Part shown: positions 4,733 through 44,758 of the stretch, piece by piece
How the letters are laid out: each line of letters starts with the position of its first letter
Numbering within the stretch: the stretch's first letter is position 1
IMG/VR virus record: IMGVR_UViG_3300027749_000163
Span: 1 to 49,279 of that record
From: a virus
DNA length: 49,279 nt
Strand: one strand, 5' to 3'
Made by a program: the position numbers and the translations under genes
The notes under the pieces: model-generated
What the model saw: only the letters and a program-made list of their open reading frames with translations
The model's database searches: none
Told to the model about the DNA's origin: nothing

Positions 4733-5269
4733 ATGGCAACTGCGAAAAAGCAACAACAAGAAGAAGAAAACAAAAAATTTGTATTTACTAGTAAAAATAT
4801 AACCGAAATAACAGAACAACTTAGTGATGGTATAATACTCAAAAGGTATCAAAATCCATGGCTCAAAAATGAAGTAGGTATAAGAAGAGCTGGTATATCA
4901 TTTGGTATATCACCTGAAGAGGTTCAAGAATATATTAGATGTATGGATGACGTGCAATATTTTGCTGAAAGATATTGTCAAATTAAAAGAGAAGATGGTT
5001 CTATTGGGCCTATAAAATTAAGAGATTATCAGAGAGGTATATTAGATTTATATAAAAATAATCGTGTTATATTATGCGCTAGTCGCCAGTCAGGTAAGTG
5101 TGCCACTGGACAGAGTGGAATAGTAATAGAAAATTCCAATATTAAAACATTGAGCGAATTATACTACACATTGTTATCTTCATATAGAAAATTAACATTT
5201 TTGGAAAAAATAAAAATAAAATTATATAAATTACTTACCCATTTAGACAACATGCACACAAAAATTTAA
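4733..5269 (+). CDS. terL (N-part): Large terminase N-terminal part with N-half of a split intein
   Basis: 178 residues. Residues 1-122 are the N-extein of a gp17-like packaging ATPase: a short Gln/Glu-rich start, an adenine-binding region with LRDYQRGILDLYKNNR (about 96-111) and the Walker A beginning ASRQSGK (116-122). Instead of the expected Thr the sequence continues with Cys123, the first residue of an intein (CATGQSGIVIENSNIKTLSE), and stops 56 residues later. The partner half is encoded at 6751. Trans-splicing would join K122 to T144 of the downstream protein and recreate GKT. Neither half alone has a complete Walker A motif, so splicing should be needed for DNA packaging. Confidence 0.92.
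   Translation: MATAKKQQQEEENKKFVFTSKNITEITEQLSDGIILKRYQNPWLKNEVGIRRAGISFGISPEEVQEYIRCMDDVQYFAERYCQIKREDGSIGPIKLRDYQRGILDLYKNNRVILCASRQSGKCATGQSGIVIENSNIKTLSELYYTLLSSYRKLTFLEKIKIKLYKLLTHLDNMHTKI
5099..5266 (+). other. Split intein N-fragment
   Basis: 56 residues starting at Cys (TGT at 5099). Block A is recognisable (C-x-x-G...V-x-I-E...I-K-T-x-S-E-L-Y), but block B is missing here and is found on the C-fragment instead. This places the split unusually early, as in the metagenomic AceL-TerL and VidaL inteins, which also carry a short N-fragment. The last ~30 residues are Lys-rich helix. Confidence 0.88.
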
Positions 5270-5292: not shown

Positions 5293-6309
5293 ATGATATT
5301 AGAAAATGTTAAAATTTTAGACAACGAAGAAAAAATCACATGTAGATTATGTGGCGCAAGAATGAAAAGAGTATATGGAAAACATATGGAAAATCATGCA
5401 AAGGAAGATGGAATTGATATAAAAACGTATCGAACTATGTATCCGAACGCTCCAATTCAAACTGAAGCAGATCATAAAGCAAATAGTAAATCTTCTGGAC
5501 TACATATGAAAGAACAAAAATACAAAGATATGTTTTCTGAAAAAATTAAAGGTAATAATAATCCAAATCATAAATTAAATACAACAGAAAAGGAAAGAAA
5601 AGAACGAAGTCCATTTTCGAAAGAATTTGTGGGATATAAAAATTTAGAGGAAGTAAACAAACAAAGTGCCGCAAGTAAATTATCAAAAGATGTAGCTAAA
5701 ATAAGGTTATCAACAGCACAAACTGAGTATTGGATTAAAAAAGGATTTAATTTAGAAGATGCTAAATTAAAAGTATCTGAAAGACAAAAAACATTTACAT
5801 TAGATTTATGCATAGAAAAATATGGAGAAGAAAACGGTAGACAAGTTTATACAGATAGACAAAATAGATGGCAGACAAGTTTATTAACTAATGGTAATTT
5901 AAAGTATGGTTATTCTAATGCTAGTCAGGAATTATTTTTAGAAATAATTAAAAATTATAAAAATATTAAAGAATTATCAAAAGTATATTTCGCTACAAAA
6001 AATAATGAACATAAAATTGATAAAAAAGAAGGTGGTATTTGGATATTTGATTTTGCAGATATTAGTAGGGGTAAATTTATAGAATATAATGGTGATAGAT
6101 ATCATGCTAATCCATTATTATATAATGAAAATGATTTTCCACATCCTTTCAGAAAAGGATTTAGTGCAAAATTTTTATGGCAAAAAGATGCAAATAAAAT
6201 TGCGGATGCTGCAAACATTGGTTTTGAAGTTTTAACTATATGGGATTCTGAGTATAAAAAAGATAAAATCGGTACTCTACAAAAATGTTTAGATTTTTTA
6301 AATATATAA
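5293..6309 (+). CDS. Free-standing homing endonuclease, Vsr-like (EDxHD type)
   Basis: 338 residues. The N-terminus holds a Ros/MucR-like zinc finger (C17, C20, H31, H35) followed by a Lys-rich linker. A middle segment (about 170-200) has the CIEKYGEENG phrase often seen in phage endonucleases. The C-terminal ~90 residues have the PD-(D/E)xK fold signature of very-short-patch-repair nucleases: FDFADI, then FIEYNGDRYHANP (E264, D268, H271), then WQKDANKI (D299) and EVLTIWDSEY. Such enzymes are known between the halves of fractured phage genes that carry split inteins. It probably cuts intein-free terL near the Walker A codons and spreads this arrangement. The ATG at 5293 follows an A-rich leader, and atatataata lies 20 bases upstream. 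Confidence 0.85.
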   Translation: MILENVKILDNEEKITCRLCGARMKRVYGKHMENHAKEDGIDIKTYRTMYPNAPIQTEADHKANSKSSGLHMKEQKYKDMFSEKIKGNNNPNHKLNTTEKERKERSPFSKEFVGYKNLEEVNKQSAASKLSKDVAKIRLSTAQTEYWIKKGFNLEDAKLKVSERQKTFTLDLCIEKYGEENGRQVYTDRQNRWQTSLLTNGNLKYGYSNASQELFLEIIKNYKNIKELSKVYFATKNNEHKIDKKEGGIWIFDFADISRGKFIEYNGDRYHANPLLYNENDFPHPFRKGFSAKFLWQKDANKIADAANIGFEVLTIWDSEYKKDKIGTLQKCLDFLNI

Positions 6310-6312
6310 CTA

Positions 6313-6711
6313 ATGAAATATATAAAATTATTTGAAGATTATGAGAATAAATTAACTAAAGAAATGATAATTAATTTATTCGTAAATGCATTAGAAGGAG
6401 GTTCTAATTATTGGTATTATTTAAAAGATATACCTAATGAAGTAAAAAACATAATGAGTAAGAAACATATAGCTACATCTGAGGCGATAGGAGAATTTAT
6501 ATTAAATGGTGGTGAAATACATATTTATGATATAGAAGATGAAGATGATTTATTAGGTAGTATAAATATGAATAATTTACTAGATGCTATAAATACGATG
6601 AAAAAAGAATATTCAGCAAATTACTTAAATATAGTTAGCGAAACTGATGATGCAGAGGATGCGGATATATTTTTACAAATAGCTACTATGGGAAAAATTG
6701 TATTTGGATAA
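6313..6711 (+). CDS. Passenger protein inside the split terL locus
   Basis: 132 residues beginning MKYIKLFEDY, the capsid-targeting-like peptide shared by many genes in the window. The body contains ALEGGSNYWYYL and SEAIGEFILNGGEIHIYDIE followed by an acidic segment. I have seen this type of small domain (xALEGGxNYW) in phage proteins, always without assigned function. It starts three bases after the endonuclease stop, so it is co-transcribed with it. Why a virion-type gene should lie between the two terminase halves is unclear; it may be ancestral neighbourhood trapped by a rearrangement or cargo carried along by homing. Confidence 0.75.
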   Translation: MKYIKLFEDYENKLTKEMIINLFVNALEGGSNYWYYLKDIPNEVKNIMSKKHIATSEAIGEFILNGGEIHIYDIEDEDDLLGSINMNNLLDAINTMKKEYSANYLNIVSETDDAEDADIFLQIATMGKIVFG

Positions 6712-6712
6712 T

Positions 6713-6751
6713 ATGAAATTATTTGAGGTATATAAAAAACATTTAAAATAA
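6713..6751 (+). CDS. 12-residue mini-ORF, possible remnant
   Basis: The reading frame MKLFEVYKKHLK begins one base after the previous stop, and its TAA overlaps the next ATG (TAATG). It reads like a decayed MKxIKLFExF peptide. It may be a remnant of a lost gene or may couple translation into the C-terminal terminase part. No function can be claimed. Confidence 0.3.
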   Translation: MKLFEVYKKHLK

Positions 6752-7179
6752 TGATAAAAAAAATAATATATTTCTTAATACAATTAATTGAGAAATACGA
6801 ATACAGGAATCTTTCATTAGATGAAGAAGATATAAATAAGAAGATACTAAATACAATATCTGGATTAAATATTAAGGTTAAAACTGATACTGGATATGAA
6901 AAAGCAACTGATATACATCTAACACAGCCTTACAAAGTATATGAAATTATACTAGATAATGGTTATCAATTAGAATGTGCTGATAATCATATTTTATTTG
7001 ATGAAAATTTTAATCAAATATTTTGTCAAGATTTAGCTATTAATTCTTATATACAAACTGATTTAGGTTTATCAAAAGTTATTAGAATAAATAAATCTAA
7101 ATGTAAGTTAAGTATGTTTGACTTAACAATTGATCATCCCAATCACAGATTTTATACAAATGGCATATTAAGTCATAAT
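6751..7179 (+). other. Split intein C-fragment
   Basis: 143 residues ending in His-Asn. Block B (DNGYQLECADNHILF, about 69-83) and blocks F/G (DHPNHRFYTNGILSHN) are both present. A leading ~30-residue charged helix may serve to associate with the N-fragment. Having block B on the C-fragment makes this an atypical split. Confidence 0.88.
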
Positions 7180-8964
7180 ACAATTAATGCAGCAATTTCA
7201 ATTTTGCATTTTATTACTTTTAATAATGATAAAAATGTAATGATTGTGGCGAATCTTAGAGATACTACTATTGAAATTGTAGATAAAATTAAATCTATTT
7301 ATGTAAATTTACCATTCTTTTTAAAGGTTGGTATTAAAGGTTGGAATCAAAAATCTATGGTTTGTGAAAATGGTTGTAAAATTAGAACAGCAGCGAGAAG
7401 TAAGACACCAGCGATTGGTTTCACAATTGACTTCTTATATTTGGATGAATTTGCGCACATTCCTTCTAATATTATAGAACCATATTATACCGCAGTATAT
7501 CCAATTGTTGCGGCTGTTAATAACTCCAAAATAATCATAACTTCAACACCAAAAGGAATGAATTTATTTTATAAATTATTAACTGATTCTGAAAGATCGG
7601 AATTAGATCCACTGAAAACAAATTTTAAATCTAAAAGAATATATTGGTATGAAGTAGAAGGAAGATTTGTAACATATTTTAGACTTTTTGAAAATAAATT
7701 ATTTGAACATGGTTTGACAAAAGAAGAAGTATTTGAACAAGTTAAAGCGGCATTTCCACAAACTAAAGTAGAAATGAATTATATAGCTGATTTAGAAAAA
7801 CATGTTGTTTATATTTATAATAAACATAATGGTGTTTTAGTTCCTTCTGAAGATGTTAAAAAGTTTATAGTTGAAAAAGATGGTAAACAAATCTTTATAC
7901 AACAATTAGCCTATGTTACAACGTGGCAAGAAGAAACTACCAAAGAAATTGGTGGTGAAGATGCATTTAATCAAGAATTCGCATTGAGATTTGTTGATGG
8001 TTCACGTTCATTATTAAACGAAGCGTTAATTGACGAATTATTGAAGAATAAAAAAGATTATGTTCATTATCCATCATACGAGTTTGATAGAAGATTGAAG
8101 TTTAATTATGAAGATTTACAATTTGTGGATGATACTAAAATTTTCTCACCATTAGATAGAAATAAAATTAAAGGTATATTCTCAATCGATATATCGGAAG
8201 GACTAGGACAAGATTACTCAGTTATTAACATGTTTAGAATTGCACCAAAACCAATGGAAATTATTGATATGTATAAAAAAGAATATAGGTATATATCGGA
8301 CTTTTTTTACTTACAACAATTTGGTATGTATAGATCTAATTTAGTATCTGTTAAGCAATTGGCTGAATTATTCTATGTATTAGCATTTGAATATTTTAAT
8401 CCTGAGAATTTTAAAGCTGTTATTGAATATAACACATATGGTATGCCATTTTTAGCAGAATTACCACATTTATTTGACGGTAATAATCAATATGGTTCAG
8501 GTATATTTTATAGATATAAACATAGAGTAGATTCGGAAGAAGAAAAAATTGGATTAAGAATAACTTCTACTAAAGAGATATTAGTAAAAGATTATCAAGA
8601 AAATATGAATAAAAGAAATTTTGATATAAACCACCCTACTAATATAAATGAAATTACTACATTTATCAAACATGTTTTACCTTCTGGTAATATAAGATAT
8701 GCCGCTGATACTGGCAATGATGATACTGTAATGAGTATAGTAAATGCATCTAGCGTTTTTTCTAAATTTATGTTTAGAGAAATGGTTGAATCAGCTGCTC
8801 CTGAATTAGTCGATTCGGCTACATTGAAATATTTTAATGATATACTAAAAAATCAAGAACAAGAAGATTATGGTAGTAACCATGATTATGACATATTAAC
8901 AAATGTAAATAAGCAAAGGAAATTCATGAATCAATATGGAATAAGAAATCGTAATAGTTGGTAA
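6751..8964 (+). CDS. terL (C-part): Large terminase C-terminal part with C-half of a split intein
   Basis: 737 residues. Residues 1-143 are the intein C-fragment, ending in FYTNGILSHN; Thr144 is the +1 extein residue. The C-extein has the rest of a gp17-type motor. Walker B FLYLDEFAH is at about 228-236 and the coupling motif TSTPKG at about 264-269. The RNase H-like nuclease acids are D480 (FSIDISEGLGQDYS), E559 (AVIEYNTYG) and D657/D658 (NDDTVMS). With the N-part the spliced protein would be about 716 residues, longer than T4 gp17 (610); a stretch around 300-400 looks like added sequence. The ATG at 6751 was chosen because the intein homology starts soon after it. Confidence 0.92.
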   Translation: MIKKIIYFLIQLIEKYEYRNLSLDEEDINKKILNTISGLNIKVKTDTGYEKATDIHLTQPYKVYEIILDNGYQLECADNHILFDENFNQIFCQDLAINSYIQTDLGLSKVIRINKSKCKLSMFDLTIDHPNHRFYTNGILSHNTINAAISILHFITFNNDKNVMIVANLRDTTIEIVDKIKSIYVNLPFFLKVGIKGWNQKSMVCENGCKIRTAARSKTPAIGFTIDFLYLDEFAHIPSNIIEPYYTAVYPIVAAVNNSKIIITSTPKGMNLFYKLLTDSERSELDPLKTNFKSKRIYWYEVEGRFVTYFRLFENKLFEHGLTKEEVFEQVKAAFPQTKVEMNYIADLEKHVVYIYNKHNGVLVPSEDVKKFIVEKDGKQIFIQQLAYVTTWQEETTKEIGGEDAFNQEFALRFVDGSRSLLNEALIDELLKNKKDYVHYPSYEFDRRLKFNYEDLQFVDDTKIFSPLDRNKIKGIFSIDISEGLGQDYSVINMFRIAPKPMEIIDMYKKEYRYISDFFYLQQFGMYRSNLVSVKQLAELFYVLAFEYFNPENFKAVIEYNTYGMPFLAELPHLFDGNNQYGSGIFYRYKHRVDSEEEKIGLRITSTKEILVKDYQENMNKRNFDINHPTNINEITTFIKHVLPSGNIRYAADTGNDDTVMSIVNASSVFSKFMFREMVESAAPELVDSATLKYFNDILKNQEQEDYGSNHDYDILTNVNKQRKFMNQYGIRNRNSW

Positions 8965-8967
8965 CTA

Positions 8968-9246
8968 TTACGATTCTTCCAATGTCACTGTTAATTCACA
9001 TGCAGATAATTTATTATAAATTATCTGCATTTTTTCTTTATCACCTCTTTTAACATCACATTTACCTTTAAAGTGTATTAAATAGGTACATTGCTCGGCT
9101 TGTTCTTTTTGATGTCCAGCATGTTTAATTAAACAATCAATAACATAATCGAAGCTATGTATATCATCGTTCCATACTATAATTACATATGGATAATTTA
9201 TTATCTCTTCCAATTCTGGACTTTCCAGCTCTTTAATTTTGCCCAT
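8968..9246 (-). CDS. clpS: ClpS-like adaptor for Clp protease
   Basis: 92 residues. ClpS delivers N-degron substrates to ClpAP/ClpCP in the cytoplasm. The signature is clear: YVIIVWNDDIHSFDYVI, then GHQKEQAEQCTYLIHFKGKC and a final CELTVTLEES. N26, D27 and H58 have the same spacing as the E. coli N-degron pocket residues N34, D35 and H66. The gatekeeper Met40 of E. coli is Phe32 here, which could change side-chain preference. It overlaps the upstream UVR-domain gene by 14 bases, so they form one operon. ClpS in a phage is unusual. Confidence 0.85.
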   Translation of the reverse strand: MGKIKELESPELEEIINYPYVIIVWNDDIHSFDYVIDCLIKHAGHQKEQAEQCTYLIHFKGKCDVKRGDKEKMQIIYNKLSACELTVTLEES

Positions 9247-9646
9247 CTAAATTTTTTATTTCCTCATTAATTAAGTTGGCTAATTCATAATTTTCATTAT
9301 GAATAGCTGCTTGCATTTCTTTTTTCAATTGTTCTTTAGATTTATTTTGGGTTTCTAAAGGTCCGCAATTTAATAAAATAAAATCTTTAAAAATTTCCGA
9401 TTTATAACTTTTAATAAAACTAACTTGATTATCATCTACCTTAGTATAAAACCATACTTTTTTTGATATAGGGTCATTATTATGAAGTGTAATTTTCATT
9501 ACTTGATCACAATATTTTTTGCCATTTATATTAACTGTATATCCTTCTGGTGGATAGATATTTATTATATCGTCTTTTCGAAGTAATTTTAATTCTTTAA
9601 TTTTTCTACTTTCGAAGAAACTGAATATTTTATATAACCATTTCAT
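9233..9646 (-). CDS. UVR-motif protein next to ClpS
   Basis: 137 residues. The N-terminal ~95 residues form an unrecognised, probably beta-rich domain. Residues ~103-135 are a UVR motif (LKKEMQAAIHNENYELANLI), the helical hairpin used by UvrB/UvrC and by Clp partners such as McsA and ClpC. With ClpS downstream, a role as a Clp-associated adaptor or modulator is more likely than DNA repair, but this is inferred from context. It is the middle gene of a three-gene minus-strand operon. Confidence 0.75.
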   Translation of the reverse strand: MKWLYKIFSFFESRKIKELKLLRKDDIINIYPPEGYTVNINGKKYCDQVMKITLHNNDPISKKVWFYTKVDDNQVSFIKSYKSEIFKDFILLNCGPLETQNKSKEQLKKEMQAAIHNENYELANLINEEIKNLDGQN

Positions 9647-9647
9647 A

Positions 9648-10163
9648 TTAGAATATTTGTTTTTTGCTAATTACATCAATTATGGATACTTTAATTTTAA
9701 AATTTTTTTCTATTTCAGCAGCCCACTCAACAAATTTAACTAGATGTTCATGCCTATCATCGTATAGAATAAATTCTGTTGCTTTTTTATTTTCTTTAAT
9801 TATTTTTTCAAATAATTTAGTTTTAAATTTAAAAGTTTCGCTACCCCAATTACAGAATACATCATTAAATTTTAAATTATGAAAATCAAGTATAGCCTGG
9901 ACTTCTTCTTTTAATTTATCCATACGTCCAGTTGCTATAAATACATAGTTATCTTTTTCAGCAATTGCTTCTGTATATTTTTTGTATGTCCACATATTCA
10001 TAGCTGGATAGAATACACTCATATCCATAGACTCTTTTTTACCCCACCAACCAGTGGGATGCGGAAATTGCTCACCTTTTTCACGAAGCCAGATTTGTCT
10101 ACCTTCTTCGGGTTCCATAGTGTGTATAAGAGTCTTGTCAAAGTCAAAACAAATGAGTTTCAT
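9648..10163 (-). CDS. HAD-superfamily phosphatase, RNA-repair (SAK) type
   Basis: 171 residues. HAD motif I is DFDKTL (D7, D9), followed by the family-specific HPTGWWGKKESM, motif II in FIATGRMDKL, and motif IV in ILYDDRHEH. This layout matches the HAD domain of Swiss-Army-Knife-type RNA repair proteins found in phages and bacteria, where the enzyme trims phosphate from RNA ends. First gene of the operon with the UVR and ClpS genes. A Bacteroidota-type promoter (rc of 10190-10220) lies 27 bases upstream of the ATG. Confidence 0.75.
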   Translation of the reverse strand: MKLICFDFDKTLIHTMEPEEGRQIWLREKGEQFPHPTGWWGKKESMDMSVFYPAMNMWTYKKYTEAIAEKDNYVFIATGRMDKLKEEVQAILDFHNLKFNDVFCNWGSETFKFKTKLFEKIIKENKKATEFILYDDRHEHLVKFVEWAAEIEKNFKIKVSIIDVISKKQIF

Positions 10164-11801: not shown

Positions 11802-11850
11802 TTAGTTAAATTAAAAAGCCGCTCAATGAGCGGCTTTTTAATTTAACTAA
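11802..11850. terminator. Long bidirectional terminator palindrome
   Basis: A 23-bp perfect stem with loop AAT and core GCCGCTC/GAGCGGC, flanked by A- and T-runs. It extends into the 3' end of the glutamine synthetase gene and includes its stop codon. Confidence 0.85.
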
Positions 11851-13003
11851 TACAATGTTGATCATTTATAAAAAATGAATAATCTTCTAATTGAACGATT
11901 GTATCACCAAGAATTGTTTGTACAATCCTATCTATAATTTCATATGGATCACCATTTGATGCTGGTCTGCGATCTTCTAAATAACCTGGTGTAGTAGAAT
12001 CTTCAATAGAAGAAGGAATACGAATAGAAGCTGTTCTATCACCTATACCGTATCTATATTCATTAATAGAACAAGTTTCATTAGCACCTGTTAAACGATG
12101 TTCATTATTAGAACCATAAACGGCAATATGCTCTTCAATTTTAGTAGCTAATTTCTCACAAGCTTCTATAACTAATTTCTTTTTATTAACTAAATCATCT
12201 CTCATAGTTTTTGTAGAGAAATTAACGTGCATACCAGACCCATTCCACTCATTTCCTTTATATGGCTTAGGATCTAATACAATATAATAATCATATTTTT
12301 CCGATAATCTTTCTAAGATATATCTCGAAACCCATAATTGATCTGAGCCTTCTTTGGCATAAACTGGTCCAATTTGATATTCCCATTGACCTAATGCTAC
12401 TTCAGCATTTATACCAGATATTTTTAAATCAGCATATTCGCACATTGAAGCATGTTCTTCGACAAATGCTCTACCTGATACATTTCTACCACCAACAGCA
12501 CAATAATAAGGTCCTTGAGGTCTAGAAGGATATGTAGTTATATCATAGTTATCTTTAGGCCACCCTAATGGTTTAGTTGTCTTTAAATCATATATAAAAT
12601 ATTCTTGTTCTAAACCATACATAGTATAATCATCATATTTATCTAATGTTTCAACCATTTTAGCTCTTTTATTTGTAATATGTGGTGTCATATCTGTATG
12701 GTATACTTCAGACACAACAATAAATCCATTTTGCTTAAATGGATCTTTAAATATATTAACTGGTTTAAGTAATAATTCGGAATTTTTTGTATCAGCTTGA
12801 TCAGTAGAAGAACCATCAAAATTCCACATAGGAAGTGTTTCAGGATTTTTTTTCCAATTATTAAATAATGTGACTAATGTTATAGCATTTTCATTAATTA
12901 CCGTAGATACTTGTTTTTCTATAATTTTAGTCTTAGAGCGTATTTGTTGTGGATACACCCCATCCAACCAAATATATTCCAAATGGATGTTTACTTTTTT
13001 CAT
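11843..13003 (-). CDS. glnA (GSII): Type II glutamine synthetase
   Basis: 386 residues. Catalyses ATP-dependent ligation of ammonia to glutamate. The sequence follows the eukaryote-like GSII family from end to end: beta-grasp start LEYIWLDG (8-15), WNFDGSSTDQA (60-70), metal-ligand GLEQEYF (E132, E134), GPYYCAVGG (164-172), GINAEVALGQWEYQIGP (E201, E208), WNGSGMHVNF (H259), the NEHRLTGANET loop and RTASIRIP. All catalytic residues I can check are present, so the enzyme should be active. GSII occurs in some Bacteroidota, a likely source. TATAAATA, the T4 late consensus, lies 21 bases before the ATG on the minus strand. Confidence 0.93.
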   Translation of the reverse strand: MKKVNIHLEYIWLDGVYPQQIRSKTKIIEKQVSTVINENAITLVTLFNNWKKNPETLPMWNFDGSSTDQADTKNSELLLKPVNIFKDPFKQNGFIVVSEVYHTDMTPHITNKRAKMVETLDKYDDYTMYGLEQEYFIYDLKTTKPLGWPKDNYDITTYPSRPQGPYYCAVGGRNVSGRAFVEEHASMCEYADLKISGINAEVALGQWEYQIGPVYAKEGSDQLWVSRYILERLSEKYDYYIVLDPKPYKGNEWNGSGMHVNFSTKTMRDDLVNKKKLVIEACEKLATKIEEHIAVYGSNNEHRLTGANETCSINEYRYGIGDRTASIRIPSSIEDSTTPGYLEDRRPASNGDPYEIIDRIVQTILGDTIVQLEDYSFFINDQHCIS

Positions 13004-44359: not shown

Positions 44360-44724
44360 GGGGCTGATTTGATTAGACTGTTAGTGTTAAAGTAAGTTAT
44401 GATGCAAGCATCGGATGTTGCCTATTCGATTAATAAAAAGCAATAAACAATTAAATGACAACGTAGAAACAGCAACTAGCGAAGATTTCGCATTTGCACT
44501 CTCTAACAACTTGATCAACGAAGTGGCTTTCGCCTAACCTGTTGAAACAGGTGACTCTGTTAAAAAAGTCAAACAAGTGGTTGTGTATAATAAACCCAAT
44601 AATTTTTTAGTTTAAGTTGAAACGGATAAACTGAATATTTCGAGATGTTAGAAAACATCCTAAGCTTGTGAAGGAATGATTTAAGTTAGCTAGCAACACC
44701 CCGGCTCGTAACCGGGCAGCTCCA
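44360..44724 (+). ncRNA. ssrA: Phage-encoded tmRNA with a long tag
   Basis: 365 bases. The 5' end GGGGCTG pairs with CAGCTCC near the 3' end, discriminator A at 44724, CCA not encoded. The T-arm is CCCGG/CCGGG with the unusual loop CTCGTAA. An open tag frame ends at TAA 44535-44537; its last residues are LINEVAFA and it includes SEDFAFALSNN. By position of the Bacteroidota resume codon it would start at GAC 44457, giving about 26 residues against about 10 in most bacteria. A hairpin CCTG-TTGAAA-CAGG follows the tag stop. Rescues stalled ribosomes and marks products for proteolysis. Confidence is high for tmRNA, lower for the tag start. Confidence 0.88.
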
Positions 44725-44725
44725 C

Positions 44726-44758
44726 AAAAATGTCTATCAAAAATGATAGACATTTTTT
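44726..44758 (+). terminator. tmRNA terminator
   Basis: AAAAATGTCTATCA / TGATAGACATTTTT hairpin with T-run directly after the tmRNA. Confidence 0.85.

Follow-up and report, generated by a model that had tools for sequence, protein, structure and literature searches.

A ClpS gene coupled to a UVR-tailed partner in a phage operon: a possible ClpF/ClpS1-like co-adaptor for the ClpC of Bacteroidota hosts

The redirection of host proteolysis by phages is an established phenomenon, whereas the role of Clp adaptors that phages themselves encode is largely unexplored. The closest functional parallel to the gene pair described here, by analogy, appears to be the ClpF-ClpS1 system of plant chloroplasts, in which a UVR protein is likewise paired with ClpS for a UVR-bearing ClpC, and in which the UVR motif also stands beside a small beta domain. 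ClpF, which combines a UVR motif with a YccV domain, binds both ClpS1 and ClpC, and its UVR motif has been suggested to contact the UVR motif of ClpC (PMC7966870). However, ClpF is reported to be unique to higher plants, whereas the phage protein has no YccV domain by Pfam and is encoded in a phage operon; the likeness is meant as one of function and not of descent. Plant proteins of the DUF151-UVR type have been found enriched in ClpC1 traps (PMC8889267). Phage-encoded ClpS is known from Atu_ph07 (gp708; PMC6102473) and from a survey of jumbo phages (PMC7824862), and the proposal is that it hands targets over to the ClpAP of the host; unlike the pair reported here, these papers mention no UVR partner.

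The locus lies in a linear virus record of 49,279 bases (IMGVR_UViG_3300027749_000163), the whole of which was analysed and is called the window. Its relevant features are as follows.

9648..10163, minus strand: HAD-superfamily phosphatase, 171 aa (Pfam HAD_SAK_1, 42.3 bits), a conserved upstream neighbour of clpS
9233..9646, minus strand: UVR-tailed protein, 137 aa, here called uvr (Pfam UVR, 21.4 bits against a cut-off of 21.5)
8968..9246, minus strand: clpS, 92 aa (Pfam ClpS, 58.8 bits)
9233..9246, minus strand: overlap of the uvr and clpS reading frames, 14 nt (read from the sequence)
6751..8964, plus strand: C-terminal part of TerL with a C-intein, the convergent neighbour of clpS (Pfam Terminase_6N and Intein_splicing)
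44360..44727, plus strand: tmRNA-like element (Rfam RF00023, model positions 1-374 of 374, 31.9 bits, E 3.4e-9, below gathering)

On the minus strand, the phosphatase, the 137-aa protein and clpS thus follow one another from 10163 to 8968, with 3 nt between the last of them and the convergent TerL stop. The uvr stop codon sits within clpS codons 4-5, an arrangement that makes translational coupling possible. Among three relatives that carry the pair, the overlap is also 14 nt in L004 and L014, and a 1-nt gap takes its place in L003. The original prediction of ClpS and UVR-domain genes overlapping within one operon is borne out by the Pfam matches and by this overlap.

TerL itself is interrupted at the lysine of Walker A and spread over plus-strand reading frames at 4733-5269, 5293-6309, 6313-6711 and 6751-8964, which read in order as an N-extein with a short N-intein, a freestanding nuclease-like gene, another ORF, and a C-intein with the C-extein. 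Related loci have full inteins or a split TerL at the same TerL site, and we take the arrangement in the window to resemble the atypically split intein of the AceL-TerL kind. A phage-borne glutamine synthetase gene is also present in the window (11843-13003, minus strand; Gln-synt_C, 54.7 bits).

The identity of the window ClpS is unambiguous. The 92-aa ORF matches the Pfam ClpS family over its curated cut-off of 23 bits (E 4.5e-16), and the NCBIfam ClpS equivalogs are its best match, yet it falls under their stricter subfamily cut-offs (43.3 versus 86). The predicted model (pLDDT 85.6), which consists of an N-terminal extension (residues 1-18) and a core (residues 19-92), matches the solved ClpS structure 9ayn with a Z of 15.0 and an rmsd of 1.3 A over 76 residues. 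The pocket residues N26, D27, D28, F32 (the gatekeeper), T54, I57 and H58 are invariant or almost so across the phage and host sets; N26, D27 and H58, the equivalents of N34, D35 and H66 of E. coli, are invariant in 56 phage ClpS sequences, and Phe32 occupies the position of Met40 in E. coli ClpS. Host sequences had been trimmed to the matched domain, which made the length of their N-terminal extension unusable for comparison. Among the four nearest phages, clpS has an NG86 dN/dS of about 0.09-0.2 at almost saturated dS. The pocket, the N-terminal extension and this purifying selection together mark ClpS as intact. We consider it very probable that the window ClpS is a functional N-recognin.

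The Phe gatekeeper had been taken as a sign that substrate choice may differ. A comparison with host ClpS led us to reject it as a phage specialisation, because Phe is the norm in Bacteroidota hosts. Within an even sample of 90 Bacteroidota ClpS, the sequences with the standard motif comprise 76 with Phe and one with Met, and the 13 missed by the pattern (NDD-motif variants, judged by eye) comprise 11 with Phe and two with Tyr, so that about 87/90 have Phe at this position. The count was taken from this unbiased sample because the pattern used in the alignment-based contig scan, which found ClpS where a single-protein contig scan gave none, demands Phe. In the tree set, which includes 16 sequences picked by a Phe-requiring pattern, Phe is found in 56/56 phage and 102/105 host sequences. 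The gatekeeper Phe accordingly represents inherited host usage and no retuning by the phage.

For ClpS, a profile scan recovered at least 521 viral contigs that encode a relative. Among 84 phage loci examined in detail, TerL lies downstream of clpS in 78 and the HAD phosphatase lies upstream in 63, as counted by hand from the locus table. In a tree of 161 ClpS sequences, 54 of the 56 phage representatives and two long-branch MAG sequences form one clade that nests among Bacteroidota ClpS, and the two others (L005 and L012) are placed elsewhere; the deep branching order is unsure because the alignment has few columns. The simplest reading of a single nested clade is one old acquisition from a Bacteroidota host followed by vertical descent beside the terminase gene. 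The phage proteins share the fold, the pocket residues and the Phe gatekeeper with the housekeeping ClpS of Bacteroidota, and differ in forming a separate clade, in residing beside TerL, and in having Cys63 and Lys66 near-fixed where host ClpS is variable.

Several other candidates were set aside. L005, whose ClpS is 39% identical and lies outside the main phage clade, was rejected as a second independent uvr-clpS pair since UVR was undetected in its 66-aa overlapping upstream ORF. L006 proved to be a false ClpS match with an ORF that reads like a flavin-dependent halogenase, and the ClpS of H4/MT835505 comes from a contig of high GC content that is labelled UNVERIFIED and appears to be cellular. 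A PADLOC search returned zero matches.

For the 137-aa protein, UVR is the only Pfam match, with residues 102-134 scoring 0.1 bit under the cut-off (E 2e-4). Three homologues with 47-62% identity also match UVR first, at 23.0, 20.4 and 16.8 bits, the first of these above the cut-off. When a UVR model was made from 27 Bacteroidota host motifs, it matched seven proteins among the 4167 mechanical ORFs of the 84 ClpS-bearing phage loci, and these comprise four members of the window uvr family and three others. Judged from these matches, the motif appears to be more than a chance resemblance. The predicted architecture is a beta-rich N-terminal domain (about residues 20-95) followed by a UVR-like helical hairpin (102-135), whose two helices, predicted with moderate confidence, span 104-116 and 120-135 in a model of low overall confidence (pLDDT 63). 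Fold matches reach a Z of 7.0 for a TraI segment and about 4-5 for ribosomal L19, NusG and Tudor-like barrels; because such values are within the usual background for models of this type, the N-terminal domain is best called small, beta-barrel-like and uncertain. A Foldseek search with this model returned nothing at E<=0.001, a result that, given the low confidence of the model, leaves room for a YccV domain. Against PHROG, the whole protein gave weak matches only (best E 0.0065).

An analogy with McsA, the UVR partner in the ClpC/McsB system, had also been drawn, and it fails beyond the shared C-terminal UVR motif: the window protein has two Cys only and no CxxC zinc fingers, and it scores 17.8 bits against the 210 required by the McsA model, over the tail and not the full length. 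McsA membership was therefore rejected. The UVR motifs of the window family score 16-19 bits against the type found in BFN (DUF151) proteins and at most 8 bits against the ClpC, UvrB and UvrC types, which makes the C-terminal UVR of BFN proteins the closest apparent relative. BFN proteins share the UVR type and its C-terminal position, but the window protein lacks the BFN nuclease domain by Pfam, and membership in this family was likewise rejected. Taken by itself, UVR is a generic motif for interactions, which occurs also in UvrB, UvrC and BFN proteins and mediates contacts outside Clp as well. The uvr product might instead take part with UvrB/UvrC in the repair of DNA or RNA, or be a relic of a BFN nuclease, with its proximity to clpS incidental. 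The BFN-like motif and the neighbouring HAD phosphatase, which is of an RNA-repair-like family, would suit this explanation. However, the N-terminal domain is predicted to be beta-rich with no BFN match, and the UvrB- and UvrC-type models score as low as stated above, and we regard it as very improbable.

An unrelated phage protein of about 190 aa has a clear C-terminal UVR motif (37 bits) at three loci, namely L044 (7081-7659), L052 (11117-11692) and L086 (11370-11945), all on the minus strand, where TerL stands between it and clpS and the distance to clpS is about 5 kb.

The uvr family is confined to one ClpS subclade, which consists of the window, L002 (identical here), L003, L004 and L014. 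In the nearest outgroups, L015 and L016, the HAD gene is followed directly by clpS; elsewhere the same slot is filled by HNH nucleases or small zinc-ribbon proteins, and in most phages it is empty. Together, the single subclade, the outgroup arrangement and the other cargo point to a probable single gain of uvr, at a site that takes up cargo. Because other phages carry other cargo or none in this slot, a single insertion there could be incidental. This consideration gives rise to the main rival to a joint function, in which ClpS does function as an adaptor for the ClpC of the host and the uvr protein is an unrelated passenger that uses its UVR motif for self-association or for another partner. 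The restriction to one subclade, the alternative occupants of the slot and the occurrence of UVR in other protein families all agree with a passenger, but three of four relatives retain the overlap with the clpS frame at 45-62% protein identity. Furthermore, UVR proteins are rare in phages: they are absent from 11/13 control records and present only in a 735-kb phage that was deposited twice, so that adjacency to clpS is unlikely to arise by chance, although this argument is post hoc. We consider the passenger explanation possible, if somewhat unlikely.

As for the host unfoldase, 8/8 Bacteroidota genomes contain a single ORF (842-878 aa) that has both Clp_N and UVR, which identifies it as ClpC, and a further Clp_N ORF of 867-906 aa has no UVR match and is taken to be ClpB. 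By these matches, ClpC would be the only class-I Clp unfoldase besides the ClpB-like one in the eight genomes, and host ClpS would thus have a UVR-bearing ClpC to work with. ClpA is not known to have a UVR motif. In keeping with a use of UVR that follows the unfoldase type of the host, no UVR protein was found in Atu_ph07 or Serratia BF, two proteobacterial phages with ClpS, as against 3-4 in each of the complete huge phages of the present lineage; this comparison is confounded by phylogeny and draws on a small, hand-picked sample. UVR and ClpS also track each other imperfectly, as the 735-kb phage encodes UVR proteins but no ClpS.

We therefore put forward, at roughly even chances, that the uvr-clpS pair is a phage-borne co-adaptor module for host ClpC that resembles ClpF/ClpS1. 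Phage ClpS would recognise proteins with N-degrons and attach to the ClpC of the host at its N-domain, while the uvr protein, co-translated with ClpS, would dock on the same unfoldase by setting its C-terminal UVR hairpin against that of ClpC. The beta domain of the uvr protein might then recruit a second set of substrates, or stabilise the ClpS-ClpC complex as proposed for ClpF with ClpS1. The ClpS half of this model is well supported, whereas we infer the UVR half, every binding step and the substrates. The window UVR match is borderline, the R-D that is usual in this motif is missing from it, and the uvr protein evolves faster than ClpS, all of which count against a joint adaptor.

Related phages encode further parts of the Clp machinery. 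In G003 (L004, 144 kb) and G112 (L014, 122 kb), the uvr-clpS pair is accompanied by a ClpP whose GLAAS serine and HQP histidine motifs are intact, as they are in most longer records that have ClpP, and by these motifs the two enzymes are catalytically complete. Four huge relatives of 464-642 kb, LR745206 (W01), LR756502 (W02), LR756504 (W03) and G117 (464 kb), have 3-4 UVR matches each, which include a ClpC-like protein, BFN+UVR proteins, a family of about 130 aa with another head, and singletons; in W01, a separate protein has a BFN domain at 107 bits. A UVR-bearing ClpC without an N-domain is encoded by three of the four (W01, W02 and G117). The W01 and W02 proteins begin just ahead of the first AAA domain with no Clp_N match, and no N-domain-like gene was seen in the 1.5 kb upstream; the G117 protein likewise lacks Clp_N and is split in two, and the ClpC-like protein of W03 is 44% identical and has no UVR match. 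Without Clp_N, these phage unfoldases would miss the usual ClpS docking site. The proposal that the phage retargets host Clp protease captures the intact ClpS coupled to a UVR protein, but it is incomplete, since close relatives bring a ClpP of their own, and the largest ones a ClpC.

The UVR-bearing phage ClpC proteins also have a VGF/IGF tripeptide of the ClpP-binding kind (LR745206 423224-425326; LR756502 440565-442658; G117). In G117 (IMGVR_UViG_3300023174_000033), ClpC is apparently intein-split at the second Walker A, with halves at 169817-171091 (plus strand) and 120918-121709 (minus strand; loci L350 and L352) that lie about 48 kb apart on opposite strands and would need protein trans-splicing. 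At LR745206 296136-296207 (L321), a 99-aa protein starts like a ClpC-type UVR hairpin, matching that of the phage ClpC at 49% identity across 35 residues, and might be a UVR mimic or decoy.

A broader and rather doubtful extension of the joint model is that the UVR hairpin serves as a modular Clp docking code in this lineage of huge Bacteroidota phages, which combine N-domain-less UVR-ClpC, their own active ClpP, ClpS, and small UVR-tailed proteins with different heads. UVR docking would then replace the lost N-domain in the loading of substrates and adaptors, and the window pair would be one such adaptor.

The tmRNA-like element bears on how ClpS might be used. ARAGORN missed it, and its score is below the gathering threshold of 47 bits; its E value was computed over the whole window, and the match is full-length. 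Full-length relatives occur in G003, G117, G123, W03 and G139 at 33-65 bits, two of them above gathering (58 and 65). The window element and these five relatives all (6/6) have a tag-like reading frame at the equivalent position, and the window element is thus likely to be a real tmRNA. The predicted tag in the window is unusually long (about 25 aa) and ends in VAFA instead of LAA, with similar tags in related phages: VAFA also in G003 and G123, ASVA in G117, AVAA in W03 and LELA in G139.

The suggestion that ClpS and tmRNA provide two routes into host proteolysis is sound in that the tmRNA is likely real, but E. coli ClpS is reported to inhibit the degradation of ssrA-tagged proteins by ClpAP (PMC9663308), and the two could therefore oppose each other at one unfoldase. 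This same inhibition, the carriage of tmRNA by the phages, and the expectation that a phage ClpC without an N-domain would escape ClpS speak for an anti-adaptor role. Such a ClpS would fill ClpC N-domains, shield phage proteins (including tmRNA-tagged ones) and divert ClpC from host substrates. However, a pure blocker would not need the N-degron pocket that is wholly kept, and the protein also has an N-terminal extension that would serve delivery; we judge this explanation improbable.

In the open-access literature, we found no description of a UVR partner of phage ClpS or of sets of UVR-tailed proteins in these phages. Nor did we find described there the conserved synteny of clpS with TerL throughout a large lineage of phages, the entry of uvr into the HAD-ClpS interval of one subclade, or the presence of ClpP in the two nearest relatives and of several UVR proteins with N-domain-less ClpC in the huge ones. 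This large virus of Bacteroidota probably steers bacterial protein degradation, and its relatives probably rebuild part of the machinery. If the co-adaptor model is true, the pair would be a bacterial-world parallel to plant ClpF-ClpS1 and a simple two-protein system for UVR-UVR docking on ClpC, and it would offer a reason for the occurrence of ClpP, N-domain-less ClpC and several UVR-tailed proteins in huge Bacteroidota phages.
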